64,000 nt of DNA from Massospora cicadina (Eukaryota; Entomophthoromycota; Entomophthoromycetes; Entomophthorales; Entomophthoraceae): contig JAKSZP010000004.1 of the NCBI GenBank assembly GCA_022478985.1, positions 62,001-126,000 of the forward strand, written 5' to 3'. Numbering within the stretch: position 1 is the stretch's first letter; each line of letters begins with the position of its first letter. Position numbers and translations under genes: made by a program. The notes under the pieces were generated by a model. That model saw only the letters and a program-made list of their open reading frames with translations, was not told the DNA's origin and did not search any database. Below are positions 2,394 to 50,976 of this stretch, in pieces.

Positions 2394-4740
2394 TTGCCAA
2401 CCATGCTTTACCCAAGTCATGTCATTGGGGAGTCTTCCCAAAACCCCATATCAGCCTCATATAAGGAAATCAAAGTTTCCTTGGACGTGGTACTCAAAAA
2501 CCAAGCCAAACTCCTTCAAGAATGTAACGTGGTCATGCATCAACTTGATAGTATGTTTAGTCAAATGCGAATCTTGGGACAACAAAACAAAGAACTTGAT
2601 AAATGACTGAATGATACCACCCAGCGGCTGCAATACACAGAAAAAAGATTCTCTACTCCTTCTCAGTCATCACGATGGGAGGATGATGACTATTAAGAAG
2701 AAGCATCCTATGTAGGAGAAAACAGCGCTTGTCATAGCTATGACACTCATGATAATAGCACCAGATATTCCTATGAGTCAGAACACCACTTACCTCCAGT
2801 AATGGCTGTACCACCTACAACTGACGGTCATGCTACCCCTGAAGTTACAAATATCCTGACTTCCACTAATCCCACTCCTCATCAAGAATCTGCTTTCAGG
2901 TCTCATTCCATTCCTCAGTGCAGACCTAATAACTGTGAATGAAAGGAGGAAATTAATATTGAAAAGATACCCCCATTTGACCACAATGGAACATCCATAG
3001 GTTCTTTAAACAATTTGAGTTTGCTGTGGAAGGAGCCTCTGATAAATAGAAGGCTAAGTTGCTAATATCTGCCCTGGATGTAGAAAGCACCAATCAGGTC
3101 ACTTGTTACCTCCCAAATAGTTCTGTTTCCTATAAGGATGTAAAGGACACGTAATCCACTTGTTTGGGGAAAACTCAAAAATGTTGCAACAGAAAACAGA
3201 ATTCTTAACAATCAGATTCCATCAAAATGAGACTCTCATTGAGTTTGCTGATCAATTCACAACAGAAGCCCATGTACTGATTGGAGCTGGGTACTTAGCA
3301 GAAGCCTATGTGTGCTTTGCCATGTCTGCCATGGTGAAGCCATATTGTGAAATTTCTAATGTTATTTCGCCGCTTCTGGAAAATGATTTACCTCTGCTTA
3401 AAATTGTACAGTTTTTATGTCAGGTATCCCCTAACTTTTTGCCACCAAATTTGGATCATAAGACTACCGCTGCCATGGCACCCTCTTATTCCAAAGAATA
3501 CTATTGACCACCTCCAGCTTTGTTTAGTAATCCTTGGCCTTACTATAACTCTGCGCCTCGTCCTCAGCCAAAATATAATCAACAGTACAATCAGTGTCAT
3601 GGTTAGATGACATGATAGTAGGCATTGATGCTAGGAACAAGGCTGGGTGACAGGAGGCCCAGAAAATGAAGCTTCAGGCTCTGCCTGACTTGAACACACA
3701 CACCTTAGATCGACGCTGGGTGCAAGCCAAGCAAGCCCAGGTTGATACTAAGGGCGTGCAAAACGCCCAGCCTCCTATTTCTGCTCAGGCTTTAAAATGA
3801 ACAATTTACATTTTAATTGAAGATGGTTCAATTAGCTTGGTTGGAGAACAAGGGTTCGAGTCCCATTCCAGTTATGAGATTTTGATTTCTGGTAAAATAA
3901 GGCTTCAATCAATTACTTGAGTGAAGGCCATTTTGGTGTATTTTTCAAAACAGATGGAAGTGTCTGTTTATTGGAACGTCAAGGCTTGGGTGCATGGCCG
4001 CAGAACCCTAATTTCCCCAATTTATTTTAAATATGTTTTTGTGATCAACACTCCTTGTTGATTGACTTGCTTAATAAAAAACACCCCATTATTTTACTTT
4101 TTTTAATGGTTCCTTGGGCAACCCTGGTGGTGGACCTCTTTGGGGAGGTCTCCAACCATGTAGGCCACTACCTTATCTCGCAATTTTACTAAGATCCCAG
4201 GGGCACCTGTGGGCCGCCCAGGTTCCCTCCAGATTGAGGCACCCAAAGCCCCTGACGTCAAGCCGCACTTGATTATGGATGCCCCTCTGGGGTCCACTCA
4301 AGCGGTGTTGTTTCTTACTTACCTGGTATTTTATGTTGCTGTTTATATACTTGCCAGGGGTACCTTTTGTACTGGCACTGCTCGAGGTGCTTGTATTCCC
4401 ATTCTTTTAATGGCTAGTTTCCTAGCAATGTGGGTTTGCATCCCACATCATCTTGCTGGGAACAAGAGAGTTACAGATACTCTCTTGACAATCAGCGTCA
4501 ATGGGCTGTCCATGACAACTGCCAACAACCTAGTTATCAACCTGGACCCAATTACACTGACCGTCAACACTTGGCTTACCAACCTGGAACTGGGTATACC
4601 AAATGACCCCAACCCTTTTGGTCTGGACCTGCTTATGATAACACAGGACGTGGTTCTTATGGGGTTAACTGCTATGAATGTGGTCACCCTAATCATTTGG
4701 AAAAATTCTGCCACAATCGCCGCATGAATTATGTACAAGA
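2394..4740 (+). pseudogene. Element A gag with CCHC zinc knuckle
   Basis: The N-terminal piece 2394-2606 (VIGESSQNPISASYKEIKV onward) is heptad-like and ends in a stop. Capsid-like pieces follow, including 3160-3507 (IRFHQNETLIEFADQFTTEA). The segment is interrupted by K3 at 3595-4427. After it, proline-, tyrosine- and glutamine-rich linker sequence leads to a clear knuckle at 4670-4711, C-Y-E-C-G-H-P-N-H-L-E-K-F-C (CX2CX4HX4C). Element C shows the same order without K3, which supports K3 being an insertion. Several frameshifts make it non-functional. Confidence 0.75.
3595..4427 (+). repeat. K3: LTR-like insertion in element A gag
   Basis: Sequence with no counterpart in the gag of element C. 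It starts TGTCATGG and ends near CCTAGCA. Flanks ATCAG and ATGTG match at only 3 of 5 positions, so the ends are tentative. Near its 5' end it encodes LDRRWVQAKQ, resembling the D-x-RWV block of the G and K1 LTRs. Near its 3' end an ATG at 4275 opens a hydrophobic ORF (STQAVLFLTYLVFYVAVYIL). Both features suit a solo LTR of the B/G type. A tRNA-like piece (TTAGCTTGGTTGG, then GGGTTCGAGTCCC) lies at about 3830-3865. Confidence 0.5.
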
Positions 4741-12573: not shown

Positions 12574-15281
12574 TTAGTCGGTAAAAGCAGCAGTGGCTTT
12601 TGATAAAATAAAGTTGTAATGAGAAGCGTATACTCGTCGATTATAATGTACCAATCTAGCTAAACGAGACCCAACTGAAGCCACTTCATCAGCAACGATC
12701 CCAAGACCATGAGAAGTTAAACTATTAGAATTAATAGCAGCCTTTTCCTCTCCAGAAATAAGCAGTTGGCGCAGAATCCTTTGCAGCCTGCGAGACAGGA
12801 CTAAGTAAAGGGAGTCGCGATAGGATACCGTCTTTCGCACCATGTTGGTGAGAAATATCTGCTGCTCAGAAGATAGTTTATGAGCGCCAGATGATAGTTG
12901 GCTAACTAGATAAGAAGAAAGGTCTTCAAGTGTAGTGGTGCCATCACGGAGAATGGCTATGAGATTGTTTTTTAGCTCGGCCTGAGTTTGGAGGTCATAA
13001 CGAAGCTGCTCGCTTGCGACATTTTTGCAAATCATGAATAGTGCCGCCACAATAGTAATTAGCTGAACTTCATTCTGCAAATCAAAAAGCCGCTTTGCAT
13101 CAAGCTCTAAAGTTTCAGGGCATTCTTCAGGGCCAATAGGAGTATTGGAGAATATTATCGAAAGAAAAGCATCAAAGATGAGGGCTTCAAAGTTAGGCCA
13201 AGAACGTGAAGGGGTGTTTTCTGGATTGCGTGAATCAAGCAGATTACGCGCTTCCCGAATGCTGGCCATCAACCAAGAACTCGTTCGAGTTAGCTTAACT
13301 TCCCCCTTCTCCAAAAGCTGATTAAATTTGGTGGCTTCATATTCCACTGCATGATTCAAGAGAGTCGGGCGGACACTAGCAATCTGATGATTGAGGTGAT
13401 CGATCAACATTAGGTCAAGGACTTCAAAGATGAACTGTAATGTCTCAAAAGGATCGGGAATAGTCACAATTTTTCTGACCATATCATCTCTCACAGGTGC
13501 ACACATCAACTTCAAGGTGGTTGAAATGTATGAAACCCACTCCTTAAAGTCAAACGTTTTTTGCTCAATCTGTTGCCGAAGGATGTCCATATCAAACTCT
13601 GAAATAAACTTGGTGTAAAAATGGCTGCTCGATGGCAAAAGCTTGATGACGCACAAACGAACCTCGTTTAAAAGGTCTAAAAGTAAAGAATCAGCGTCAC
13701 CGGCATTTTCTTTTTCCTTAAAGTTGTCAAAGAAGGCTTGCGTGGCAACTTTTCGGACCTTTTGAAAAGTAGTATTACTTTCAGAAGAGAGCTTAAAATT
13801 TGGATTCATAATTATCTCGTGGGCTAGTTCGCGCGCTGAAAATTTAACACTTTGCCCTTGAACAGCTTCGAGAGGAAAACTTGGTAACATAAAAGCTTCC
13901 TCAATTTTTTGCTCCAAAAGTAACGAAGAAAGATCTACGGCGCTTGAGGATTGGTCGCTTGAGATATCTGAAGAGAACCTTGGAGACATGGGTTCAACAA
14001 AACCAGTGGTTGGTGAGGAAAGAGGTTCCGAACTGGCTTGCTTGGCAAGGCGATGCTTGTTAATCAGCTCCGCAACAGCACCCTCACCCGCTATATTCCG
14101 AACCTGTTCTTTAATCTCCTCGCGCTGTCTTAGAATTTCTTCTCTCCAGTCCTGTTCCGAGTCTTTGCCGCCACGAAACTTTTCCCAGATAAGATCCAAT
14201 TCAATAAAGTGTTGTGTCATACTTTCTACCAATTCTCTTATATCCAGTGATTTCCACGCTTCAAAGTTGTAATAGTATTCGTCCCAAAGGGCAAGAAATT
14301 GGTGTAGGTCATTATAAAGCATTTTTCCTGTCCGGAATCGATATCCACGACTCAAAAGCAAGGAGCATCTTTTTGGCAGAACACCAAAGTTGGTGAGGCT
14401 AAAAAGAGCGTTAGCTTGCCATCGAAATATTTAAAGGCGAATGCCCTTGAAACTTACTAGCCCCTTGCTGTCAGTAGTTCCAAGGATTTCCGAAGGGTGG
14501 GCTGAAATAAGATAGGCCGTCATGAAAACCTTGACGGAATTTTTATACTTACCAGGCTTTGAATAAAGAGAGAGATGCTTCGGGCCCTACTAAGAAGGAG
14601 GGAAGCAGCCTTTAGCAAAGGTTTAGATTTAAGCCTTGCTGCAAGGACATTAAATTCGAGACCGCGAGATACTTCGAAGGTGAGCTCGTATCTCTTGAAG
14701 GAATTTATCAGAGGGAGAAACTTTAGATTGCGCCACCAGCTCTGAATGATTATTGTTGCTTCAAGGGGAGTTAGAGAAAGTTGTTCGGAAGAAGGGGCGA
14801 ACTTTCTGCGTGTAGTTCGCAAAATCTGATTGCGACGTTGTGAGGAGTGGTTAATACGTAGCTCGAGTTCAACACGGCGACACTCACGCTCTTTCTCGAT
14901 GCGCAAGTTGTGAAGGCGTGCCACCTCCTTGGCTCTTTTAACCGCGAGTGAGCAGTTTTTGGTCTGGTTTGAAATTAATAGTCGCCTCTTAGCATCAGCG
15001 GACTCCAGGAGCCTACTTAGCTGGGTTCGCTTCAGCTTTTTCTGGATCTGAGCTCTCTGGCAATGTTGATCATGCAATTGGCGGCCGGTGAGGTACCGCT
15101 TCGCAAGTTTCTTACGGCGTTCCTCAAGAAAGGCATTTCGGTTGAGCTCTGCAGCCTTAACTGTAAGCCTTGCCTGCAACTTGCGAAATTGCATGCGCTG
15201 TTCTAAATGAAAAGGGCGGTTGCTTGAGTGCTGTAAAGCTCGAATATCAATGTCAAAAACATATGGCTCTTGGTTCGGCAT
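12574..15281 (-). CDS. TCP11/Sok1-like protein, three exons
   Basis: Exons on the minus strand: 15281-14553, 14501-14458 (44 nt) and 14398-12574, joining in frame to about 865 residues. The ATG at 15281 is the first in frame. The N-terminal 150 residues are rich in Arg/Lys and Leu, likely coiled coil (RRKLAKRYLTGRQLHDQH). Near residue 180 comes an IQ-like block, IIIQSWWRNLKFLPLINSFK, as in the TCP11 family. The C-terminal 600 residues carry family blocks such as FSARELAHEIIMNPNFKL and LRYDLQTQAELKNN. TCP11-family proteins (yeast Sok1, sperm TCP11) are linked to cAMP/PKA signalling; that role here is inferred from family only. The frame is intact and no other host gene lies nearby. Confidence 0.85.
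14399..14457 (-). other. Intron 2 of the TCP11-like gene
   Basis: 59 nt, donor GTAAGT, branch-like GCTAAC near the 3' end and acceptor CTTTTTAG. Splicing restores a Tyr codon across the junction and links the 44-nt exon to the long exon in frame. Confidence 0.8.
14502..14552 (-). other. Intron 1 of the TCP11-like gene
   Basis: 51 nt, donor GTAAGT directly after codon CTG, acceptor TATTTCAG. Removing it keeps phase 0. The length is typical of fungi. Confidence 0.8.
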
Positions 15282-17749: not shown

Positions 17750-19788
17750 CTGCTGTTCAATTTATATGAGCATGTGTAAAATAGAATCCAAAAAAATTTG
17801 ACCAGAGACCTATCAATGATTGGTTAGATAACCATAATGCTTGGGGAGATGAATATAGGTTTAGCTCCCAGCAATGTTTTTAGAAGTGATTGGCTTTCTC
17901 ACTGAAACCACAAAAAATAGTATAATGCTAACCTAACTTTAAATCCTGGAACCAATGGAAAGCTCATGCCTGAACAAATTTTGAATTTGCCTCTCAACTC
18001 TGAAAAAAGCTCCATCAGCTTCACCTCTAGAATTTTTTTAAGCATTATCAAATTTCTCACCAAATTTGAAGAATTTATGGAACTATAGGGACATATTACT
18101 TACTACTACTACAAGGAAGTCAATCAGAAGCTCCTCAACTGCTTCATCAATGCCCTTGAAACCCTTACCTTAATGCCATATACTTAGCGCAACTGACTTG
18201 TGTAGATCAGGCTATTGCTTTTTCCAAAATTATGTGAGAATGGTGACCCACCACCACAAATCAACCCTAAAATTCCAATATTGCACATCCAGTTACCAAA
18301 GAGTTGGATGCCTCCAACATAGAAGATATTCTGAAAATCTCCAATATTAAGCTACCATCAGAATTCAACCAACAGATTCACACTCTCACCAAACAAGTCT
18401 AGTAGTTGACCATATTGGTTTAGGGGCAGCAGCCCTATAATAACCTTCAATACTTTAATTGCAGTCAGACCAGCTACCACTTATGACAATGTTGCACCCC
18501 TTGTGCTCTGTGCATATAGTTCATCCAGGTAGAAATTTCCCTTATTGAGGAGAGCAACAGGCCTGGCCAAAACACCTATCTTGTTATCTGCCAATTTTCC
18601 CCTCCAGTTTGCCCATCCAATCCTCCTCACCCCAGAATGTCCACACAACTTAAGATTGGGGATATACCAACTCAAAAACCCTTATGAAAATCCAGTATGT
18701 GGGTGAAGCTCCCTCAGACAAAGATGATCAGTTGGCCTTACTTTTGGGGAATACGCTGCTGAAAACTAAAGAATTGAAGAAACTAAAAGCTCAAGTGCTA
18801 CTCCTAATTATTAGAAGAAAATGAAGATTGAAGAATAATTGAACTCCAAATCCCTGAAAGCACCCGAGCCCAAAATTGCTGCCCCTGAATTCCCAACAAA
18901 AGTGAAAGATGATTTACTGAATGCTACCTAGTGCTAAAAAGATGATTTAATGAATGCTGGGTCCACAATGATGACTGAACCCTATGGAATCTTGATGGAT
19001 GAATATGATGAGAATTCAAGGGAGGATACCCCAGTGGTAGAGTATGGACCCTCTACCACTGCCTCCTGAGTTTGATCCCGGTAATGGACTTTGGGTAGGG
19101 GACGATTTTGACTGTGTTGGTTTTGCGCGCCAATGCCCCAAACTGAGATAGCGAATAGCAAAGGTGGTCCATGGAGTTCCTGGCCTATCATACGCCGCGC
19201 ATGGAGGTTTTCTGGGTTTTATCCTCCTTTCCCATTTTCTTCACTTCCCTAATCAGTGCGGTATTATCCCCAAGTCAGCCCACCTCAAATAAAATTGTTA
19301 AATATGATGAGAATTCACAAGTCTAATCAACCATCTAGGAATTGCCTCAACCCAATTTTGTCCTCAGACATCAAAACAAATCAAAAGGAAATGAAAACCC
19401 ACAATCCCAACCCATATTGTCAAAAAAGCATCAACTGCCCATATTGCATCAACCTGAACTGGTCAACCAGTTTATGGAAAATTTGCCTGCTCAGTATCCC
19501 CTTACATTGCCTTTGAAAATAGCCCCAGTCTGACCAGTTCCCCATATCAACTAAAGGAATTACCACTGTTTGAATTTTGAAGAATACTTTTATTTCAGTA
19601 TCCCTTAGTAATTTATGCAAGTTGAGTCCTGTCTTATATCAAGAGCTATACCAAAGCATTGGCCATGCGCAACTCTGATATTTTTACCAGAATCCTAAAA
19701 CTCTGTTTACAAACCAAGGAGTGCCACACACTCAAGAATCCCTTTTCAGATATTCCTCCTCAAGTTATTTTGGATTCAGGATCACCTG
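17750..19788 (+). pseudogene. Element I gag and protease start
   Basis: Broken plus-strand frames. Near 17800 a capsid-like block is rich in Asp, Trp and Asn (FDQRPINDWLDNHNAWGDEY). Proline- and glutamine-rich linker pieces follow to about 19560. The protease begins just before 19788 with VILDSGSP. The SINE at 19019-19300 splits a stretch that otherwise reads DEYDENS then ELPQPN. Element B breaks the protease after DSGSP. Confidence 0.65.
19019..19300 (+). repeat. tRNA-derived SINE, copy 1
   Basis: 282 bp, flanked by a perfect 17-bp duplication AATATGATGAGAATTCA (19002-19018 and 19301-19317). The head GGAGGATACCCCAGTGGTAG has an A-box-like start, and the B box is GAGTTTGATCCCGG. The tail ends GTCAGCCCACCTCAAATAAA. 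Closely similar to 27474-27758. Inserted in the gag of element I. Confidence 0.9.
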
Positions 19789-20611
19789 TGTGACAGTTGA
19801 GGTCTATACTCACATCACATTGCCCTGATCTTTGGTAAGACAGGGCAGGCTGTGTCTGTATGTATGGAGGAGGAGGGGGCGTTGGTTCTGGCAAGGATGC
19901 CTAAGGGGCCGGAGCTTGGAGTAGGCCAAGGAGCAAGATGGGCGTCCAAGTTGGAACAAAACAGAAAACGAGAAAAATGGGTAGTTTCGAGATTTGATTT
20001 GGATTCGAATTGAGAATGGAATGAAATGGGTGCTTGGGAGTTTCACAGTTCGATTGGAATTTGAAATGGAACTGGCGCGGAACCATTGAGGATCAGAACT
20101 GGCATGGAATCTTTGAGTAAAGATTCCGCGATCCTGCTGTAAAGTTTACACCAAACATCATTCAAGTTGGCACCATAAGCTTATATTATATTATATTTTA
20201 GCTTTTAGCCTGTGTATATAGGGAAGGAACTGGGAGCTGGAGGCTCCTCAGTTCTGTTTTCTATCAACTTGGCTAAATATTAAATAAAAGAACCTAAAAT
20301 TCATATATTTATAATTTGGGTTTATTTTAAGATATTGCCTAACTGCAGCCATGTTTGGCTTAAATCAACAAGAGTTGGACTTTGAGAGTGAGCTTGGGAG
20401 GGCTATTGCCTCCCTCTATACCTTGTCTTGGAGTCAAGGCATGTTGCTGGGGTTAAGTATATTTGCAACTGTCTTCAGGGGATGCTTGTCCAATCTTGTA
20501 GCGCGCGCACCAGGAGAGTAGTATCAGGAGTCCTGTCAGCCCTATGGTCTTTAACATGGATCCTGTTGCCTAACTCATTCGTGGCTCATTGGAAGGAGCC
20601 AGTGCGTTACA
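19789..20611 (+). repeat. 5' LTR of element B
   Basis: 823 bp, TGTGACAGTT to GCGTTACA. Contains a TATA box at 20215-20220, the inferred RNA start at 20250, AATAAA near 20282 and the ORF1 start codon at 20351. A one-base deletion near 20475-20482, relative to the 3' LTR, shifts the ORF1 frame. Confidence 0.92.
20215..20259 (+). promoter_or_regulatory. Element B promoter and inferred RNA 5' end
   Basis: TATATA at 20215-20220 stands 30 bases before A20250. The ten bases from there, AGTTCTGTTT, are the exact complement of the primer site at 20614-20623, which supports A20250 as the first base of the transcript. The same arrangement is kept in the 3' LTR near 25150. Confidence 0.65.
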
Positions 20612-20991
20612 TTAAACAGAACTCATTTACTTTACTGCCATTGTGGTGGCAAGCAAAAGAGGTGCCAGAAGAAGTTGTGTTTCCAAAGTGGTATAACCAT
20701 ACTGCAACACTCTTGATGGTGATATTCTCCACCGCCTTTTTGCTTCATGAATTATACCAGGTTTTAGAGTGTGTGTCCCGGGATGGTGGGAAAGTGGTAG
20801 GGCCTGGGAAGGAAAAAGGAAGAATTCCCACGGTTTTAAAATTGGAAGACTTGGAACTGATCCACCAGATGTTTAGCCGGGTTCAGTTTCAAGGACGTTT
20901 GACAAAGGCAGCGGGTAGAGAGGATTCGTTTGCCTTGCAGTTAAGTCAGGTTCTGTTGGTACTTCCAGTAAAGCAGTCAAACTGGGTGTGA
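20351..20991 (+). pseudogene. Element B ORF1: hydrophobic protein starting within the LTR
   Basis: ATG at 20351 (GCAGCCATGT) lies inside the 5' LTR. In the 3' LTR the equivalent frame (25254-25515) is open for 87 codons plus one base, ending in KEPVRY at the LTR end. In the 5' copy a one-base deletion shifts the frame, after which it continues to a stop at 20989-20991. The unbroken form would have about 213 residues, with hydrophobic segments near residues 30-48 (GMLLGLSIFATVFKGVLV), 57-73 (VVSGVLSALWSLTWILL) and 118-132 (TATLLMVIFSTAFLL). It occupies the place of Gag but has no capsid or CCHC motif. The primer site is read as codons KQN. Function unknown. Confidence 0.65.
20614..20623 (+). 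promoter_or_regulatory. Self-complementary primer-binding site of element B
   Basis: AAACAGAACT, two bases after the LTR end, is the reverse complement of AGTTCTGTTT at 20250-20259 in R of the LTR. No TGG-type tRNA site is present. In Tf1/sushi-type elements the 5' end of the RNA folds onto such a site to prime reverse transcription. Confidence 0.7.
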
Positions 20992-21263
20992 GAAATTTTA
21001 GAAGAGCATTCAGGGTTACCCGTATCAGTGGAGGAATGTCTGGATTGGATTGACCGTGCAGCATGTCCAGATGAGGTGCAGGAGCGGTGAAACCTGCAGC
21101 GACGTTGGAGGAAGAGGTAGGTTTAGCCTTGCAGGTAGAGCGACAATTGAGTTTGGTATGGGCCCGTCAGGAATTTGTGCGACCCCCAGGGGGATTCTGA
21201 GGACAGAGTGGTGGAAGAAGGGCAGGTTCAGAGCCCATACATGGTTCTAAGGGGTTTAGCTAT

Positions 21264-24200
21264 GTGGAGGAAGGAAAGAAGAGTCAAGGAAATCCTGAGG
21301 GTATGGTTGAGGTGCGGGAGACAGGGATTCCCATCGAGATTACCGCTCAGGATCCTGAGGCTCAGAATAAGAAGGCTCCTTATAATTTTTGCAAGAAGCC
21401 AGTGAATCTGGTGCCTCAAAATAAACCGCTTACTTCATCTTATCCTTATCTGATTTTGCCCATCAATGTGCTTGTGGGGGATGAAGGAAGGGATTGCGGT
21501 GAAGTTCTAGCTTTAATTGACACTGGAGCTGGGGAAAATTGTGTTGAGGAGAAGTGGGCAAGAAGCCATGGATTGTCATTACAGAAGGATGGATGGGTGA
21601 CGTTGGCAGACGCCTCCAAAAAAATGGCGGTATGGCGAGTGCAGGCCAAGGTCCTGTTGAGGCAAGGCCCAGAGGTATTCAGGGAGGAGTTTCACGCCAT
21701 AGCTCACCTGCCACATTCGGTGGTGTTGGGGATGAGATGGTGGCACCATTTCTGCCCACAGTTTGATATGAAGAGAGAGAGGGTTCTGTTGTCGCCTAGA
21801 GGTCAGGAGATGTGTGAATGGACGTTTCAGTCCCTGTGGAGGTGTTTGAGCCTAAAGGTGATGCGCCTTTTTCGCCTACAGGGGATTTTTGCATTTGGAT
21901 TCCAGTTCAAGGAAGGCTCTGAGTTACCAAAGGGCTTTCCAGTCTATTCGTTGAATCCATGGGCCCGAGAGGCATTGGAGGATTATGTCCATAAGATGCT
22001 GGATATGGGTTTGATTGTGCCTTCCAAGTCGCCGGTGGTTTCGCCAGTCCTGTTGGTTCCCAAGTCAGGGGGAGTTACGTCCTTGTGTTGATTTCCGACG
22101 CCTTAATGAGGTGACAGAACCTGACCCCTATCCAATGCCACTCATGGAGAACATTCTGCCCATGATCTATGGGTGTGGGGTGTTCACCAAATTGGATTTG
22201 GTGGACGCTTTCAATCAAATTCCTGTTCGCCCTGAGCACCAGTGGTATACGGCATTCAAATGTCATCTGGGAAACTTTGAGTACAGGGTTATGCCATTTG
22301 GGCTATGCAATGCCCCTGCAGTTTTCCAGCGCATGATTGATCATGTATTGGGAGACTTAGTGGGTAGGTGTTGTGTTGCTTATATGGATGACATCCTGGT
22401 GTTTTCCAGATCGGCACAGGACCATGTGAGGGATGTGAGAAGTGTGTTGGAGGTGATTAGGAACGCGGGCTTGAAGTTGAAGCCATCCAAGTGCGAGTTC
22501 AATAAGGAATCAGTGTCCTTTCTAGGGAACGTGGTCCTCCAAGAAGGGATAGCAATCTGTCCTGATAAGTTGCAGGCGGTGCGGGAATGGAAGGCTCCTG
22601 GGAATAGGACTGAAGTGCGAAGTTTTTTGGGGTGGTGAATTTTGTGCGGAGGTTTTCAAGGGATCTGGCCCAATGGGCTGTGCCGTTGACAAGACTGACG
22701 GAAACGTGCCGTTCATTTGGGGGAGGCTGAGGAGAGGGCATTTCAGCAAGTGAAGACGAGTCTGCTGACAGCCCCAGTTCTGGCACACCCTGACCCAAAC
22801 AAACCATTCGTGGTAGAGACTGACGCGTCAAATTTTGCACTTGGAGCCATGTTGTTGCAGGAGGGTAAAGATGGGGTTGAACATCCTGTCTGTTACTTCA
22901 GTTGGAAGATGGCACCAGCTGAAACCAACTATCCAGTTTATGATAAGGAACTTTTGGCAATAGTTGCAGCTTTAGGGGAGTGGCAACACCACCTATTGTA
23001 TGCCAGGCACCCAGTTGTCATCTGAACGGACCATTGAGCCTTAGAATACTATAAGTCCCCACGCCTGATGAACCAGAGGCAGGCCTGGTGGCACTTAGAG
23101 TTGGTTCAATATGACCTGCGGATTGAATACAAGCTGGGAAAACAAAATATCTTGCCAGATTTATTGAGCCGTGATTCTGGACTGGTGTTTTCCAATGAGG
23201 AGTTGAGGAAGTTCAATACAGCCACGATGTTGCCACAGAACCTGTTTGCAACGATCCAGGGCTGGAGAGAAGGAATGGCAGGAAGAATCCGGACTGCACA
23301 GCAAAGATGTGAGCTGGGCCAACGGATAAGAGAAGAGACAGGAGAAGGTGAGGCAAGCAGGGGGCATGCAGGATTCTCAGTTTGGGGTGGTATCATATGC
23401 CATGAGGGAAGGATTTGGGTCCCTGTGAAGAGTCTGCAACAAGAGGTAATGGCAGCTAATCACGACCATCTTCTGGCAGGTCATCCCGGTCAAGAGAAGA
23501 TGTTAGATCTTGTTCGCCGTCACTATTCGTGGAGAGGTGTGGGTGCAGCGGTGCGGAAGTATGTTTTGCGTTGTGTGGTTTGCGCCAGGGCAAAGGCCCA
23601 ACGGGTGGCACCAGGGGGGAAATTGAAGCCGCTTCAAATTCCTTCTAGGCCATGGTCCTCAGTGAGTGTGGACTTCATCACAGGACTGCCCAAGTCACAG
23701 GGGATGGATGCCTTGATGGTGGTGGTGGATCGCCTGACTAAATATGCAGAGTTTTTCCCTTGTCAGTCAACCATTTCTGCAAAGGTGGCAGGACAGATTT
23801 TTGTAAATGAGGTTTTCTCCAGACATGGGGTGCCTGAAGAGATTGTGTCAGATCGTGGTCCGCAATTTACATCTAAATTTTGGCTCCACATGTTGGGGAA
23901 TCTAAAGATCAAGGCTTGCCATTCGTCAGCATACCATCCTCAGTCAGACGGCCAAACTGAGAGAGTAAATCAGATATTGGAGCAATATTTGAGGTGCTAT
24001 GTCTCAGGGCGGCAGGATGACTGGGTATATTGGGTGAAGCTGGCTCAATTTGCTTATAACAATCATAAGCATTCATCCATGGGTATGACCCCATTTTTCG
24101 CAAATCATGGCCAACACCCAGAGGGTATGGGGCCCAGGGAGCAAGGTCAGAATCCAGTGGCAGATGAGCTGTCGCAAGATACCCGGGACACCCTGGAGCT

Positions 24201-24696
24201 CCTGAAGAAGGATTTGGTGGTGGCGGTTGTGGCTCAGAAGAGGAAGGCGGACCAGCATAGATCTGAAGGTAGAGTTTTCAAGAGAGGTGATTGGGTCTTG
24301 GTGAATGCTCAGAACTATGCCTTGCCTGTAAGGAGCCAGAAATTGGGGCCGGTGGCGTTGGGCCCATATCAGGTAGTGAGGGCGGTGAACGAGGTGGCAT
24401 TTGAGCTGAAGCTCCCAGAAGGGTCAAGAGCCCATCCAGTGTTGCATGTATCGCAGCTCAAGCCATTCTTTGGCCAGCCTCCTGAAAGGGTTTCTCCTTT
24501 ATTTCCAGCTGGAGGAGGAGCTGAAGAGTATGAAGTTGAGGAGATTCTTGACACCAAAGTGGTGCAAGGACGTCGTTCATTCTTGGTACGTTGGGTGGGT
24601 CATCCTATTGAGGAGTCCACATGGCAGTCAGCTAGGGATTGTGCCAGATGTCCTGAGAAAATCCAAGAGTTCTTCCTGTCTAGGGGGGTGATGTGA
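21264..24696 (+). pseudogene. Element B pol: protease, RT, RNase H, integrase, chromodomain
   Basis: Protease: DTGA at 21519-21530. RT: KLDLVDAFNQI near 22190, MPFGLCNAPAVFQRM near 22290, and YMDD at 22381-22392. RNase H: ETDASNFALGAMLLQE near 22820. Integrase in 23068-24696: zinc block (HDHLLAGHP to CVVCARAK), SDRGPQF near 23850 and HPQSDGQTERVNQ with its catalytic Glu near 23960. The chromodomain covers the last 55 residues (EEILDTKVVQGRRSFLVRW). Breaks are a +1 shift near 22080, two shifts at 22628-22715, and TGA codons at 23023 and 23035 that probably arose from CGA. Otherwise all catalytic residues are present. Between 20992 and 21263 only broken frames are seen. Confidence 0.92.
24681..24691 (+). 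other. Polypurine tract of element B
   Basis: TAGGGGGGTGA ends directly at the 3' LTR. The stop codon of pol (TGA, 24694-24696) lies just inside the LTR. Confidence 0.7.
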
Positions 24697-25515
24697 CGGT
24701 TGAGGTCTATCCTCAGCATCACATTGCCCTGATCTTTGGTAAGACAGGGCAGGCTGTGTCTGTATGTATGGAGGAGGAGGGGGCGTTGGTTCTGGCAAGG
24801 ACGCCTAAGGGGCCAGAGCTTGGAGTAGGCCAAGGAGCAAGATGGGCGTCCAAGTCAGAACAAAATGGAAAACGAGAAAAATGGGTAGTTTGAGATTTGA
24901 TTTGAATTCAAATCGAGAATGGAATGAAATGGGTGCTTGGGAGTTTCGCGGTTTGATTGGAATTCGAAATGGAACTGGCGCGGAACCATTGAGGATCAGA
25001 ACTGGCATGGAATCATTGAGTAAAGATTCCGCGATCCTGCTGTAAAGTTTACACCAAACATCATTCAAGTTGGCACCATAAGCTTATATTATATTTTATT
25101 TTAGCTTTTAGCCTGTGTATATAGGGAAGGAACTGGGAGCTGGAGGCTCCTCAGTTCTGTTTTCTATCAACTTGGCTAAATATTAAATAAAAGAACCTAA
25201 AATTCATATATTTATAATTTGGGTTTATTTTAAGATATTGCCTAACTGCAGCCATGTTTGGCTTAAATCAACAAGAGTTGGACTTTAAGAGTGAGCTTGG
25301 GAGGGCTATTGCCTCCCTCTATACCTTGTCTTGGAGTCAAGGCATGTTGCTGGGGTTAAGTATATTTGCAACTGTCTTCAAGGGGGTGCTTGTTCAATCT
25401 TGTAGCGCGCACACCAGGAGAGTAGTATCAGGAGTCCTGTCAGCCCTATGGTCTTTAACATGGATCCTGTTGCCTAACTCATTCGTGGCTCATTGGAAGG
25501 AGCCAGTGCGTTACA
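24692..25515 (+). repeat. 3' LTR of element B
   Basis: 824 bp, TGTGACGGTT to GCGTTACA. Differences from the 5' LTR include several CG/CA and CG/TG pairs. It keeps the ORF1 N-terminal frame (25254-25515) and, from its first bases, an open U3 frame of 66 codons (24693-24893). Confidence 0.92.
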
Positions 25516-25800
25516 ACCTGCCAATATCGTCACTAAGAAGTTCTTGCTCAATATCAACTATAAAGATATCCTCCAAAGGGACCTTGTATTCCTGATAGCT
25601 GGCAGCTCCCAACAACCCTGTTGCAGCCAGGTGTTTATTTTGCCTGTTGAGGTTACTGGCAAAGTATAATAAATTGATGCCATCATCTTTGACCTCAGTT
25701 ATTTCCTGATGCTGATATCCTTCTAAGCTTATAAAGAATTTGTAATCATTGCCATCTTCAAAAGTTCCCAGTGGTATATATGAACTAATCAAGGGTTAAA
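25516..25800 (+). pseudogene. Element I protease, continuation after element B
   Basis: Directly after the duplicated ACCTG the frame reads ANIVTKKFLLNINYKDI, which continues DSGSP at 19774-19788 in phase and matches the protease of element J. It decays into stops after about 40 codons. Confidence 0.75.
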
Positions 25801-39215: not shown

Positions 39216-40585
39216 TGTCATGGAAATGGCAGAAGAAGTTTAGACCGGCCTGCCAGTCAGAATGCATAAGCATCCAGAAAGCAAGCCAGAATGCCAGAGG
39301 CATTGCCAACCATACGACTTGATATGGAGCCAGGAAATAGGATACAACAAAATAGTGGCGGAATGTCAGGGTTAGGAATATCCCAGCGGCAAACCACACT
39401 GAATAGACTTCAGACCCAGGAGTTCTGGTAACAGGGGTGAAAACTACTGGGATAGTTTCTGCGAGATTCTTGGTTGTTAAAACTATTTCGTTGGGGTAGA
39501 AGAGAGGCGAATTTTCTCTTGTAGTTGGCAAACATAGGGCCATAAAATCCCTGTATAAGGCTGCCGGAAGGTCATGAGAACTGGGTTTAGAACCAAAAAT
39601 TTTAGACTTGTTGAGCCTAATTGGTGATAGAGGGAATCATGGTAACCAAGAGATATGGTAAGGACCACCCAGAGTGTGGAGCGGTGGACCACCAGGTGAA
39701 TGTCATATGGAATGTGGTCAAAAGGAAGGAGATAAAAATTTGGGGTTTTAATAAAATTTTAATTGGGAAATAAGGTAAGAAAATCGACCAACAATTTTCT
39801 CAGTGCCATGCAACTGATTAAATAGTGGTCAGTTGGGTAGTGACAATGACGTGGGCAGGATCCACAAATTCAGCCTAACCAGCGAATTGGATGGTAGTGG
39901 GGGAGTTTATTCTTTGAGAACTGACATCGCAAAATTTGGTGGCAGGCTGAGACTCTGTCAGTTTGACCTCAAATGTCTGAACCAGGGGTCGATTATGTTT
40001 CTAATGGTTAGCATGATGGCATTAGGCCTGACGAACGACGGGAATCCCCCAAGGCCATCCCATATAGGGATGGGACCATTTGGTTGGGAACGGGTTTGGG
40101 ATGGCCAACCCACCCGCGCTCAGTCATTTAACCATTCATTTGGTCAATAGTAGCTCATCAGACACGACGCCCAAATTACTATCAGAGGGCTTCAAACTCT
40201 CATTGATGTCACCTGATATTTGTTTTACTGATTTAGGGATCAAATTGGAACCGTTGGGCAATCTGGCTGATATCTCATTCTTCATACTTTTACAGCCATT
40301 CAAATTTCAGCCATCAGCCCGATTGCCACCTGAATTAGATCTGACTAATAGAAGTTTGATAATCTTGGCACAGATTTCACTAATTCCCCACAACAGTTCT
40401 GCTGAGGTGAGTGAGGGAATTGGGGGTGGGATCCAAAGTGGACGGGCTACCACCCATCGCTCATCAACTATGTGGGTGAGATCGCCCTGGGTGATGAGGG
40501 GTACCACCATCCTCTTTAGTGTTTTCTTATTTGGGAACAGAAAGATAGCTCGATTGAGAGCCAAAGGACACTCCTGAGACTTACA
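39216..40585 (-). repeat. K1: solo LTR (minus) of the G-type family
   Basis: Flanked by perfect GTAAT (39211-39215 and 40586-40590). On the minus strand it begins TGTAAGTCTCAG and ends CCATGACA, like the LTR of element G (TGTAAGTATCAG to CCATGACA). 1370 bp. It encodes a U3 frame (40597-40307) with GDLTHIVDERWVVARP, homologous to the G LTR. A second, hydrophobic frame starts at ATG 39543 and stays open to the LTR end (AMPLAFWLAFWMLM), 109 codons plus one base. Removing K1 rejoins the RT of C (GCAGTAAT then AGACCA). Confidence 0.9.
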
Positions 40586-40712
40586 GTAATAGACCAATGG
40601 AAGATTAACAGTATCACCAAGAAGGACTATAACCTTGCCGCAGATTGACGATGCTTTGGATTAATTAGGGGGAGCTTGTTACTTCTTGGTGATGGATTTG
40701 ATATTGGGTTAC

Positions 40713-41325
40713 TGTAATGGATCAGGTGGCACCTGATCTGTACATTGCTTTGGATCAGTCAGTACTGGATCTGAATATTGGATTCATAGGAAGGAACCCA
40801 AATTTGAGGGAATCAGAGCAAGGAAAATCAACTGTTTGAAGCTGAAATGCATCCAAGTTGATATGACAGAGACTTACAAGCGGCATGTACAATGATTCAG
40901 TGGGATATGGAATCTTTGCCTGAGATGTGCTGGTCAGTTCAGGAGAGCCTAGCGTAGGAGAAAGCTTATTTAATATTAGCAAAATACTATCTATTTGGAC
41001 TATAGGCTGTCCTGAATGGCCAGTTGAGCCTTCTACAAAACCACAGAAATTCAATAAAGAATTGCTTGCATAATAAAATATTATTTTAAGTAATATAATC
41101 AGATCGAAGACATGAGCTCCACTAGTGAGCTCAGAGTGGCATTGGCGTGGATCTTGGTATTCTCCTACAGCGTGTGGACAGTGATCCAAGGGTGTGTGGC
41201 AATGACGAAACTTGGCAGATGGGTTTGAGGATTGGCTCCAGCAGGCTGGTCCCTAGTAGAGTCAGCTATGAGGCTCTTACTTCCCAATTTCCTCATGGAA
41301 TATTGGCACAAACCCGTTCGTTACA
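40713..41325 (+). repeat. K2: solo LTR related to the element B LTR
   Basis: 613 bp, TGTAATGGATCAGG to CCGTTCGTTACA, with perfect GTTAC duplications (40708-40712 and 41326-41330). An ATG at 41112 opens a frame of 71 codons plus one base to the LTR end, with one TGA. Its last part LLLPNFLMEYWHKPVRY matches LLPNSFVAHWKEPVRY of the element B LTR in the same phase. AATAAA lies near 41055. Confidence 0.9.
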
Positions 41326-45491: not shown

Positions 45492-46374
45492 GGTAAGTTT
45501 CAGACAGGAACCACTCCATTTGGATCAGGAGCAATTCCCATTCCTTGAAAAAAAGGGGCGGAGGCCATAACCTGTGCCTCTCACCACCCAGGGCAATATG
45601 GCCCATGTGGTAGATAAGAGGTGGGTCACGGCGTACACCCTGAGGGTTGCAGTGCCTCCCCCAGCATTATCCTCCACCAAGCTGGTGGAAAACATTTGGA
45701 GGGTTTGCTAGGAGGTGGTAAAATTGCGCAAAACACCTCAAACCTCCTGAGATCCCGCCATTGTGTCAATGTCACACCCACCCCCAACAGGTATGGGGGT
45801 GATCAACCCCTTCCCCACCAACTGGGTCCAGCCCTATGTGGCTTGGCCTTGGGTGCAACCTGCTGAATGCCCAAAATGTCACCAACATAGTAAATGCATG
45901 CACTCAATGGATAAATTAAATTTGAGTAATGAGCCCATAAAGGATTTGGATAAGAAGTTCAGACTGGAGTCAGTCGCAAATTAGGTCTGGGAACCCAATC
46001 TGACAGCTTGTTTCGAATCTATTCCCATCAGTAGTTGTGCTTACATCCCAATTTTCTCCAGTGGGCTTATAAGCAGTGGTCCCCAACAGGTACTTCTGTC
46101 ACTCCATTTTTTGTTTTCCCCATTTTATATTTAAATTAATAATCTTTACAAAACAACCAAACCAATCCGGAATATTAGTCTCCAACCATTACTTTAATAA
46201 AGAAGAGATGTTTCCGCTTTTAGGCACTACATGGCTGGTATTCATGGCCGGTATTTTTATCTTTAAGTGTCATTTTGGACGGCTGTGCCCGTGGCATTCT
46301 GGCTTGGGTTTTTTGTGGTAACTAACCTTGAGTTCCATGTCAGTCTAATATAACTATCAGCACGCTACATGACA
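45492..46374 (+). repeat. 5' LTR of element G
   Basis: About 883 bp. The start is altered (GGTAAG for TGTAAG) and the end is CATGACA. Contains the U3 coding-like stretch with MAHVVDKRWVTAYT, a Trp/Cys-rich piece (45763-45984) and, at 46210, an ATG opening a short hydrophobic frame (TTWLVFMAGIFIFKC). After the LTR, TGGAGCGACC (46379 onward) is a possible primer site. Confidence 0.82.
45763..45984 (+). pseudogene. U3 coding stretch in the G LTR, Trp/Cys-rich part
   Basis: 73 open codons inside the LTR with WVQPYVAWPWVQPAECPKC and a Cys/His cluster (CPKCHQHSKCMH). The K1 LTR has a similar but broken stretch on its own sense strand (PNQMVPSLYGMAWGIPVV), so this is an old coding piece of this LTR family. 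It continues the frame region of MAHVVDKRWV upstream. No known family is recognised. Confidence 0.45.
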
Positions 46375-46376
46375 TA

Positions 46377-46709
46377 ATGGAGCGACCTATAGTTCTGGCC
46401 CTCTCCATCTCACCCTCTGGGTGGGGTGTTGCATGGGTTTCCCAAACAACATTCAACCTCTTTCCAGCTGGCAGAGTACAGCTCAGCTCTGGCCCCGTAG
46501 GTCAGGAAGTTCAGGATTCAAATTCTTTCTTAATGTTGTCTGCCAATGACACAAAAATGAGCCATAACAAGTTTATATCAGAAATCCCCCTCCTTCCATT
46601 GGTTACTGCCATTAGTTCAACAATACAAAAACACTCACCTATAAGCAGGATCACGCCTATTTCCTGCTACCAGTGGAAATCCATCTACCGGGTACTGGGT
46701 GTCATTTGA
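46377..46709 (+). pseudogene. Element G first internal ORF
   Basis: 110 open codons starting just after the LTR (ATGGAGCGACCT). The frame entering from the LTR end (CAT GAC A) has the same phase as K1. No capsid or zinc knuckle. It ends before the protease-like motif near 46715. Possibly the rest of an ORF1 equivalent to that of B. Confidence 0.45.
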
Positions 46710-49700
46710 GGCCCTGGTAGACAAAGGGCGGTAGGGAATTTCATGAATTTGAAGTTGGCGCATCAGCTGGTATTGGACTTGGAGGTTGGGACAGAGGTGT
46801 TGGGTTGCATCTTCTGCTATACATTCATCTTTTAAGATTCGTCATCAGGTTCCATTCCAAGTGAGCAATTTTCAATTCTGTGAATATTTCTCAGTCATGT
46901 CTGACTTAGTATTCCAAGTTATCTTTGTGTGGATTAGAGGAGAGGATAACAAGTGAAGGTTAACTTGGATTCAAACATGCTACTCTTTAAAAATGCTCAT
47001 GGTGGTGGTGAGCTCCCACTCCTCGACACTTTAGGTAAAGCGCAGAATAGAGGTACCATTTCCACACTCGCTACACCCATGGACTTGCCTCCTGATTTTC
47101 CCACCTCTGATAGCGTATAAGTGGAGCTTTGATATGAAAAAGCTTCCCAACTTCCGCCACATTCACAGTATGATCTTAAGTTCTGCACAACAGTGGAGGT
47201 GGTTAACATCAATTATCCACTATATCCCCAAACAGTGGAAGAAACTGCGGCCTTGAATGTTTGGATTGAAGACATGCTTGCAAAGGGATGGCTCTTCAAG
47301 GAGACCTCTCCAACTGTATCTCCCATTGTGTTCGTGAAGAAGGCTGACACCACACTGCTCCCATGTGTGAATTATGGTCACCTCAACAATATCACAGTCC
47401 ACAACCCCTACCCACTTCCATTATAAAAATTGCCCAAGCAATAGTGCAGTCATGAGTTTTTTTAAAACTCGTTTTGGTGAACACCTTCAACCAAATATAG
47501 TAGCCAAAGATCAGGAATGGGTTGCCACTATCTAAATGAGGTTGGGCATATTCCAGTTCTGTGTCATGGCTTTTAGGCTAAATAAAGCTCCTGCCACATT
47601 CCAGTGGATGATCAATGATTTGCTGAGTAATCTGCGTAACATGTGAGCGGTTGCTTACATTGACAATATCTTTGTTCACTCCCCAATCCCTTAACAGCAC
47701 GCCATAGATTTGGAGGCTGTGCTTGCAGCTCTGCACAAGCCGGACCTATTTGTGAAGCCATTAAAGTTCAAGTTCTTTCACAATGAGGTTAACTTCTTGG
47801 GTAACTTGATCTTAAAAAGATGATTATGTGATTCCGCCCTACAAACTTGAAGCCATCCTTGAGTGGCCCACCTCAATGACCCAGAAGCAGTTGTGGAGCT
47901 TTTTTTCACCATCATTTTTTTAAAAAATTTCCCTGGCCCTTTCACAATTGTCTGTGCCGTTGCACCCCTCACTGGCAATAATGTCCCATTCTGTTAGACC
48001 GCAGAATGCCAGACGGCATTTGACGCTATCAAATAGTTATTTGTGTTGCCGCTAGAGCTTAAGAATGCAGATGAAGCCAAACCCTTCATTGTCAGATGTG
48101 ACGCCTCTTCCACGGCGGTGGGAGTGGGCTTGTTGAAGGACCACAAGGGAGTGGATCACCCAGTAGCATATTTCTCCCACAAATTTACAACCACAGAGCA
48201 GAACTTGGATATTTTTGATAAGGAGTTGGTGGCTGTATCATGGGCGTTAACCCATTGGCGATACCTCCTGTAGGATGCTACACATGAGGTGACAGTGTGG
48301 ACAGACTACCAAGCTCTTATGTATTTCCTTAGACTGCAGAAGTTGGCACACCATCAGGCACAGATGTACCGTGACCTATGCAGTTTTAACTTCAAGTATG
48401 AATTTGTAAAGGTGTCACTGAAAGTTCCCTAACTTTATGAGCCGCAACCCGCCTTATGTCCCACAGAGGTGGAGGAGCAAGAGCTCACCACAGTGATTCC
48501 GCCAACCCAAATCTTATGCATTACTCCACCTGTAATTCTATCAGCAGATCCAGATCCATCTGCCCCCTGTCAGCTCAGGTTTTGGATCACCAGTTGAATT
48601 GTCCTGAAGGCTTGGAGCTGTTGGTACAGCTTGCGGATCTGGTGCACAATTGTTACCACTACTTGATAGAAATGGGAGGAATTATGTTTTGGGCTCAGTT
48701 GTGGGTGCCTCCCCGGCTTTGCACCAAAGCAATCCAGGCTCATCATGATCCACCTGCGGTTGGTCACCATAGAGTGAAAAAGTGCATCAACTTGGTGAAA
48801 AGAACATAAAATTGGCCTGGGATCCTAAAAGACATCCTTGCGTGGATAGTGATTTGTGTAACCTGCGCAAGGGCAAAATCAGACCGTTCTGGGTGAAACA
48901 TTCTTCTACACCCACTGCAACAGGCCAAGGGTCCATGGTCATTGGTGTCCGTTGACTTTATAGTTGAGCTCCCTACTTCAAATGGCCACAATGAAATCAT
49001 GGTCGTTGTAGACTGGTCCACCAAATTTGCTTTGTATATCTTTGCTCAAGATCTAATACTTCAGAGGAAACCGCTCATCTTTTTGTCCGCCACAACTTTT
49101 CTATGTTTGGCTTACCTTAGGGGGTCATGAGTGATAGGGGCCCACAGTTCACTGCATGCTTTTGGACGGCCCTTCTGGCCATCCTGAAAATACAACCATG
49201 CTGGTCCTCTGCATACCATCCCCAATCAGATGGTAAGATGAAATGCATTAATTAAATCCTGAAGCAGTACCATCATTGTTACATCATGGATGTACAGGAC
49301 ACCTGGGCGGACAATCTTCCATTGGCTCAGCTTGCCTAAAATAATGCCTCACACGTCTCCACAGAGTTTTCTGCGTTTGAATCAACGTTAAGGTATAACC
49401 CTTCCTTCTCTCCTGGCCCCCGTTTTCATCCTGAGGTTCCTGCAGTGGCTGAGCATGCTCAAAAAGTCTAGGCTACTCACTCCCTGGTCCGCGAACACCT
49501 TACTAGAGTGTTTGATGATAATAAGCAATTTTCTGACCAAAAGCGCCTGCCCGCTCCCAATTCCAAAATAGGTTTGAAGGTTATGCTCAACACCTGCCAC
49601 CTGCGCATCAAGGGCCCCTCACAGAAATTTGCAAGTAAAAAATCAGGTCCCCATGAGGTTATTGAAGACTTGGGCAATGGCTCCTTCCGTTTGGTGCTCC

Positions 49701-49930
49701 CTCCCCACTGGAAACAGAATATGGTTTTCTATGCCTCCCAACTGTCTCCCTTTACTGCTACCCCCCAATGATCCTGAACCCATCGTTTTTGATGAGTCAG
49801 TTAAATCTGAGGTGTATGCAGTTTTGGCGTTGCATAAGACCCACTACCTGGTTCAGTACCTGGTGGCGTGAAAGGATTTCCCTTTGTATAAAAACAGCTG
49901 GGTCAGTGCTTGTGATTGTATCAACTTTTG
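46690..49930 (+). pseudogene. Element G pol with chromodomain, decayed
   Basis: Protease-like FEALVDKGAVGNFMN near 46710 (DSG changed to DKG). RT: YPLYPQTVEETAALNVWIED (47217 on), SPIVFVKKAD, and YIDN at 47656-47667 for YxDD. RNase H: VRCDASSTAVGVGLL near 48090. Integrase: VSVDFIVELPT near 48945 and SDRGPQF near 49130; the Glu block reads SDGKMKC, so Glu is Lys. The C-terminal block GPHEVIEDLGNGSFRLVLPP is followed by a chromodomain-like EVYAVLALHKTHYLVQYLV near 49810. Confidence 0.8.
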
Positions 49931-50094
49931 AAAATTTGGCGGAAACATTCCATATGGCACACCCTGAAGCCCCATGTCCTCCTCTTAAGATTGCTGCACG
50001 TATCGCCATCAAACGCCCCAAGGCCCTACAAGAATATCGCATTGGATCAGTTCCCCAGTGGCAGTGCTTCACCCCTTCCTAAAGGGAAGGGTAA

Positions 50095-50971
50095 TGTAAG
50101 TATCAGACAGGAACCACTCCATTTGGATCAGGAGAAATTCCCATTCCTTGAAAAAAGGGCGGAGGCCAGAACATGTGCCTCTCACCACCCAGGGCAATAT
50201 GGCCCATGTGGTAGATAAGAGGTGGGTCACGGCGTACACCCTGAGGGTTGCAGTGACTCTCCCAGCATTATCCTCCACCGAGCTGGTGGAAAACATTTGG
50301 AGGGTTTGCTGGGAGGTGGTAAAATTGCGCAAAACACCTCAAACCTCCTGAGATCCCTCCATTGTGCCAATGTCACACCTACCCCCAATAGTATGGGGGT
50401 GATCAACCCCTCCCCACTAACTGGATCCAGCCCTATGTGGCTTGTCCTTGGCCAACCTGCTGACTGCCCAAAATATCACCACCATATTAAATGCATGTGC
50501 ATGATGGAAAAATTGAATTTGAGTAATAAGCCCAAAAAGGATTTGGATAAGAAGTTCAGACCCAAGTCAGTCGCAAATTAGGTCTGGGAATTCAATCTGA
50601 CAGCTTGTTTCGAATTTATTTCCATCAGTAGTTGTGCTTACATCCCAATTTCCCCGGTGGGCTTATAAGCAGTGGTCCCAACAGGTACTTCTGTCACTCC
50701 ATTTTTTTGTTTTCCCCATTTTATATTCAAATTAATAATCTTTACAAAACAACCAAACCAATTTGGAACAATAGTCTCCAACCATTACAATTAATAAAGA
50801 AGAGATGTTCCCGCTTTTAGGCACCACATGGCTGGTCTTCATGGCCGGTATTTTTATCTTTAAGTGTCATTTTGGACGGCTGTGCCCGCAACATCCTAGC
50901 TTGGTTTTTGGGTGGTAACTAACCTGGAGTTCCAGGTCAGTCTAATATAATTATCAGTACTCTCCATGACA
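50095..50971 (+). repeat. 3' LTR of element G
   Basis: 877 bp, TGTAAGTATCAG to CCATGACA, preceded by the purine tract AAAGGGAAGGGTAA. Contains an open frame 50148-50351 in U3 with PLTTQGNMAHVVDKRWVTA. Confidence 0.87.
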
Positions 50972-50976
50972 TATGG

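Follow-up and report, generated by a model that had tools for sequence, protein, structure and literature searches.

Reading frames that start inside the LTR place a hydrophobic domain ahead of Gag in retrotransposons of Massospora cicadina

Gag of an LTR retrotransposon is generally taken to be a soluble protein of the cytosol. In the intracisternal A particles, which are vertebrate, retrovirus-like and tRNA-primed and whose Gag starts outside the LTR, an N-terminal hydrophobic signal directs Gag to the ER. In yeast Ty1, GAG starts in the LTR, which holds just a short N-terminal piece of it. The primer-binding site (PBS) of Ty1 lies within the GAG ORF (PMC4974528), and Ty1 is a precedent for SRP-linked localisation of Gag and RNA (PMC3945221). 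Self-priming, in which the PBS pairs with the 5′ end of the RNA itself, is described for the Tf1/sushi group (PMC4600332, PMC6317226), and insect elements of the MDG1 group carry a transmembrane protein of their own, encoded by sORF2 (PMC11952523).

Massospora cicadina is a cicada-infecting fungus with a published assembly of 1.488 Gb in 19,694 scaffolds; transposable elements make up 92% of the genome, Ty3 LTR elements account for 73% of those, and the gene set was built to avoid calling transposons (PMC9584336). Here, we analysed a window of 64,000 nucleotides (C4:62001-126000) and searched an assembly of 1.47 Gb (16,968 contigs) for relatives of its elements. The window holds a complete pair of LTRs of one family, B, and solo LTRs of two others, K1 and K2 (Table 1). 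In B, reverse transcriptase (RT) precedes integrase and a chromodomain sits at the integrase C-terminus (Pfam), which is the chromovirus arrangement; this order and the self-primer set B apart from Ty1-like elements, which are defined by the order PR-IN-RT-RH and a tRNA primer. B shares the chromodomain integrase, the SH3_Tf2-1 domain and a self-primer PBS with the Tf1/sushi chromoviruses (Tf1, Tj1, sushi-ichi, Tcn1-like). Unlike in that group, the start codon of B and K1 lies in the LTR, the PBS falls in the coding frame and a hydrophobic domain precedes Gag.

Table 1. Features of the window, with positions counted from its first letter.
Feature	Position	Strand	Remarks
Host Tcp11 protein gene	12577-14322		100% match to Massospora cicadina protein L0F63_000113
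B 5′ LTR, TG...CA	19789-20611	+	TSD ACCTG at 19784-19788
Candidate TATA box TATATA	20215-20220	+	30-35 bases 5′ of inferred RNA start
Inferred RNA 5′ end and self-primer AGTTCTGTTT	20250-20259	+	exact complement of PBS
ATG and first 56 codons of TM-Gag frame	20351-20518	+	frameshift, then stop 20519-20521
Same protein from about residue 45 on (hydrophobic stretches 2 and 3, Gag start)	20482-20991	+	
Primer-binding site AAACAGAACT	20614-20623	+	complementary to 20250-20259; within coding frame
Rest of Gag	20992-21200	+	163 bp absent at about 21083/21084
B protease region	21303-22091	+	gag-asp_proteas E 2.4e-5, 25.2 bits (curated cut-off 28.2)
B reverse transcriptase piece	22135-22638	+	RVT_1 E 3.7e-32
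B integrase, Tf2-1-like SH3 domain, chromodomain	23068-24696	+	rve, SH3_Tf2-1, Chromo above cut-off
B 3′ LTR	24692-25515	+	ATG 25254, frame open, 262 bases to LTR end; TSD 25516-25520
K1 solo LTR	39216-40590	-	TSD ATTAC; family start codon at 39706; frame broken here
K2 solo LTR	40713-41325	+	TSD GTTAC; ATG 41112; one in-frame stop

An earlier note on this DNA had described in B an ATG at 20351, 101 bases past an inferred RNA start at A20250, opening a hydrophobic frame that crosses the LTR end. Position and distance were confirmed in the sequence, and the inferred RNA start fits the priming: AGTTCTGTTT, which begins at 20250, is exactly complementary in the window copy to the sequence two bases past the LTR end. 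The string was found in 21/21 B copies (window included), and in three other copies its complement sits at the start of the internal part. The exact self-primer match was 10 nt in 4/4 B copies tested, 11 nt in one of two K1 copies (L043; L048 is without an exact match) and 8 nt in one of five K2 copies. Judged from these matches, B and K1 look self-primed, with the PBS inside the coding frame. The ORF start is the first ATG after the primer in 20 of the 21 B copies, the exception being L022, with one ATG 19 bases 5′ of it.

The window copy of B is broken, with a frameshift in the LTR, a stop at 20989 and the loss of 163 bp of Gag that are present in most other listed copies, as seen from the spacing of match pieces. 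The crossing of the LTR end holds for other B copies, 17/20 of which cross it from the same ATG (the frame stops before it in L018, L019 and L028), but not for the window 5′ LTR, where a stop follows after 56 codons and the ATG lies 261 bases from the LTR end, versus 262 in the 3′ LTR. Positions 20482-20991, which had been assigned to the ORF, do encode the same protein but belong to the frame that follows a frameshift. The ORF of the family does not end at the stop at 20989-20991: this stop is absent in 16 of 19 fetched copies (L018 omitted) and present in L012, L020 and L023. The early end of the LTR frame (window 20351-20521) is common to the window copy, L018 and L019, and the window copy and L018 are also without some Gag sequence; early-ending B copies are possibly a non-autonomous sub-lineage carried by others.

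The 20 fetched B copies were the best-matching of 39 other places scored. Their frame is open for at least 290 aa in 11/20 (L021, among these, ends out of frame), and in 10/20 it passes about 140 largely hydrophobic residues and then a stretch that in L009 matches Retrotrans_gag (PF03732) at residues 210-290 (E 1.9e-4; 22.0 bits, just below the curated 24.1), consistent in position with the downstream protease. Four of the 20 (L011, L013, L014 and L015) continue into the protease. Since the LTR frame runs on into Gag and protease, ORF1 of B reads as the N-terminus of a Gag-protease polyprotein; what had been proposed to stand in place of Gag is an N-terminal extension of it. Tf1/sushi elements have a single Gag-Pol frame; in B, L011, L013 and L014 (3/20) are open for 660 aa through Gag and protease, and one further copy for 979 aa (length only). 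The closure of those three at one common point before RT may reflect a shared defect, a recoding site or a sequencing error. Moreover, 119/119 B matches, many with stops, keep one frame across the LTR-end position; these were the best-scoring of 19,597 first-look candidates and are biased towards intact frames. In the 20 copies that have both LTRs the pairs differ by a K2P of 0.006-0.049, which makes B a young family. Identical 5-bp flanks were seen in just 7/20 of these copies (L009-L028 set), and the others, with unlike flanks, may be recombinant despite their young LTRs.

The plan of K1, with an LTR of about 1.38 kb, is like that of B: the frame opens with codons in the LTR, then come hydrophobic segments (two to five), a stretch of Gag size without a Pfam Gag match, and a protease. 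In L043, a single frame opens 493 bases before the LTR end with the ATG that comes first after the 11-nt self-primer, includes the protease (RVP_2 at residues 523-621) and closes beyond it after 643 aa. The K1 start had been placed at 39543, an internal ATG in a copy that carries a frameshift; read from there, the first ~17 residues fall outside the frame used by intact copies, which begins further upstream (window equivalent 39706). The LTR-end position is spanned in one frame by 145/146 K1 matches (71-100% identity, many with stops), the matches coming from the 145 best-scoring of 50,123 first-look candidates and being biased towards intact frames. The distance of 3n+1 bases from ATG to LTR end, stressed in the earlier note, is indeed found in the B 3′ LTR (262), K1 (493 in L043) and K2 (214), but it matters less than the running of the B and K1 frames past the LTR. 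An LTR-start reading frame in B and K1 is well supported, the LTR-encoded part comprising 87 to 164 codons across families (164 in K1), with several hydrophobic stretches. No homology was detectable between the B and K1 N-termini (hhalign, probability 0.2). A look-alike motif, ELGxAxxxLY, is present in L043 at residues 180-191 and in L009 at residues 14-25 and is not significant; the likeness might point to a shared ancestry in which the LTR end has moved with respect to the coding sequence.

Three membrane-like segments had been predicted in the B frame, and by hydropathy three hydrophobic stretches were found, with Kyte-Doolittle peaks at residues 32-50, 61-79 and 121-139 (1.74, 1.49 and 1.68). 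Two to five segments, each above 1.3, were found in 17 K1 copies, and none in two B Pol pieces; the scale also scores one segment in the K1 protease stretch (580-598) and two in the host Tcp11 protein. When the residues were shuffled, the segment number was reached in 68/1000 (B) and 237/1000 (K1) cases with Kyte-Doolittle and in 607 and 998 of 1000 with an octanol scale; what is unusual is therefore the composition and not the pattern. A single-sequence AlphaFold model was helical with a pLDDT of 46, worthless as a fold.

Segment counts within the shuffle range would suit a frame that is hydrophobic by chance, the real Gag coming from an internal start or a spliced RNA; the broken window copy and the neutral, stop-bearing K2 frame described below point the same way. 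Against this reading stands the in-frame continuity into Gag in B and into protease in both B and K1. In addition, the only methionines of L009 are at positions 1, 31, 123, 267, 285 and 298; as none lies between its third hydrophobic stretch and its Gag match, no start codon in that interval would yield Gag without the hydrophobic part. In L043 a methionine (residue 262) does follow the hydrophobic segments, and a shorter K1 Gag may start from it.

The chance-frame reading also bears on selection. Nei-Gojobori dN/dS for 16 K1 copies was 0.38 (0.30-0.49) in the LTR part and 0.37 (0.25-0.56) in the internal part. The non-coding U3 of K2, read as coding, gives 0.54, which shows the plain ratio to be biased; we set it aside as proof and replaced it by placement shuffles that kept the base and CpG context of the changed sites, counting each change once over 400 placements (L065, with a one-codon deletion, was left out of the K1 site counts). 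The K1 LTR part had 171 amino-acid changes versus 199.8±7.1 expected (0/400 shuffles as low) and the internal part 83 versus 94.1±5.0 (9/400), a similar degree of constraint within and outside the LTR. For the pair L043-L068 alone, the LTR part had 60 versus 75.3±4.7 expected (0/400). The deficit was specific to the true frame: wrong K1 frames had none, one even having an excess, and the three frames of the K1 U3 gave 45/41.9, 41/40.6 and 38/42.6, none significant (48/400 for the last). The K1 copies were chosen by protein similarity (13/16 fetched as stop-free in the table), a choice that favours constraint and that the wrong-frame control shares. Eleven K1 LTRs chosen by DNA similarity had no significant deficit (76 versus 79.1; 110/400), as expected of mostly decaying copies. 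These counts support selection on the LTR-encoded K1 frame. Hydropathy is also kept within the K1 segments, where the mean change was 1.18 versus 1.75 expected (0/1000), with 1.63 versus 1.82 outside them (61/1000); with L068 as reference the values were 1.23 versus 1.71 (1/1000) and 1.57 versus 1.78 (46/1000). Gained charged residues were not depleted in the segments (11 versus 12.0; 13 versus 12.5).

No signal of selection was seen in B, in line with a chance frame: its LTR part has 17 distinct changes, 12 of them amino-acid changes versus 11.6 expected (11 versus 10.8 without L018), and its Gag 33 changes, 19 amino-acid versus 21.3±2.5 (91/400), leaving out the deletion copy L018, which inflates the changes to 168. 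The B copies are young and their changes few. The K2 ORF frame is neutral, with 72 changes versus 73.4 expected. The outcomes that the earlier note had named as telling against it, stops or neutral change in other copies, thus apply to K2; the frame of K1 is preserved and under constraint, and B is too young to tell. An LTR-initiated hydrophobic ORF stands for B and K1, with selection in K1, but not as a substitute for Gag. Given the continuity of both frames and the K1 deficit, we regard a chance frame as very unlikely.

For K2, the ATG at 41112, its 214 bases to the LTR end and a frame reading LLPNFLMEYWHKPVRY were found as described, and its N-terminus resembles B at LLPN..W..PVRY; the layout does not persist as an intact frame, with at least one real in-frame stop in 13/13 distinct LTRs examined. 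The best 39 relatives listed are 84-90% identical, with one further inverted match at 80%, and in L030, L033 and L037 pairs of K2 LTRs enclose about 0.75-0.9 kb. K2 is apparently a small, high-copy, non-autonomous family. Two other elements of the window were considered and not counted. The hydrophobic ORF of element A (4275-4727, 150 aa) overlaps the frame of a zinc-knuckle-like motif and is likely an off-frame reading. Element E (45493-50973) is a decayed relative of K1, each of whose LTRs contains a short hydrophobic frame (at 46208 and 50805).

What the domain does can be read in more than one way. As proposed for Ty1, where translation is SRP-linked and Gag passes into the lumen of the ER ahead of assembly (PMC3945221), and where the PBS also falls within GAG (PMC4974528), the domain might be a cleavable or looped signal that takes Gag through the ER with no stable anchoring. 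The presence of several hydrophobic stretches suits an anchor with multiple passes better than a single signal, and the B charges, -3 at the N-terminus and +3 in loop 1, would fit an arrangement with the N-terminus outside and Gag inside, the 34 residues after the third segment being neutral; we consider such an ER signal rather unlikely. Alternatively, the domain could be chiefly a fusion or pore-forming device that moves capsids between cells, like sORF2 of the MDG1 group, with anchoring for assembly at most a secondary role. Capsid transfer without Envelope has been described for retrotransposons that encode a short, fusogen-like transmembrane protein (PMC11952523), and entomophthoralean fungi have a wall-less protoplast stage in the insect (PMC11105155). 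The domain is here joined to Gag and not carried on a separate ORF, and a fusion device seems unlikely to us, slightly more so than the ER signal.

The best explanation, which we consider probable, is that B and K1 are self-primed Ty3/gypsy-type elements whose Gag-Pol starts in the LTR and whose N-terminal domain serves as a membrane signal anchor. Transcription would begin at the inferred RNA start and translation at the first AUG, inside the LTR, about 90-100 nt downstream. The frame would span the LTR end and the PBS and run in the order hydrophobic domain, Gag, protease and RT (the last by open length in one copy). The hydrophobic segments would emerge first and recruit SRP, so that the polysome with the genomic RNA docks on the ER and the precursor is inserted co-translationally, leaving Gag on the cytosolic side. 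The RNA being translated would then gather together with Gag and Pol on the cytosolic face of one membrane, where particles would assemble, and the protease may later cut Gag/capsid free. With the start codon in the LTR, the LTR end and PBS double as codons, and each solo LTR would have a promoter, a leader and the beginning of the hydrophobic segment. This anchor reading suggests that some very abundant Massospora retrotransposons assemble on membranes. A far broader version, in which a whole lineage, one of the abundant ones in this 1.5-Gb genome, has a multi-pass, partly LTR-written anchor on all its Gag-Pol, assembles on membranes and passes without an envelope between wall-less fungal cells, with a promoter, a start codon and the first portion of a membrane protein in each of its solo LTRs, strikes us as highly improbable.

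Searches for relatives gave little. With the B protein, no relative was found at E<=0.01 among 7997 candidates scored in the protein database, nor with the K1 protein among 7996. In the same search the host Tcp11 protein of the window retrieved its own record and relatives, and the database therefore contains this fungus. An IMG/VR scan with the B piece gave four pattern matches and no confirmed one, in a collection from which records near this genome are possibly absent. Intracisternal A particles are like B and K1 in the N-terminal hydrophobic part of Gag and differ in primer and start site. Ty1 shares the PBS in the GAG ORF (PMC4974528) and the route of Gag via the ER by SRP (PMC3945221); it differs as a member of the Ty1/copia superfamily with a tRNA primer, the elements here having several hydrophobic stretches and 87 to 164 LTR codons. 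The MDG1-group elements have a transmembrane protein too, and differ in that sORF2 is a separate small ORF, the domain here being fused to Gag and partly LTR-encoded. Within the titles and abstract openings covered (subscription papers lying outside this scope), no transmembrane Gag is named, except for the separate sORF2 (PMC11952523), and the word "transmembrane" is absent from the main text of a fungal and plant Tcn1 survey (PMC2864245) and of a plant survey (PMC6317226). Each of these features has a precedent, be it self-priming, a start in the LTR or ER-linked Gag; a chromovirus that combines them was not found in this literature.

If true, a built-in hydrophobic Gag domain under selection would alter views of how these elements assemble and possibly spread. 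An annotation that starts Gag past the LTR would miss the LTR-encoded part. In a genome that is 92% transposable elements (PMC9584336), the anchor reading would offer a concrete, testable claim about membranes.
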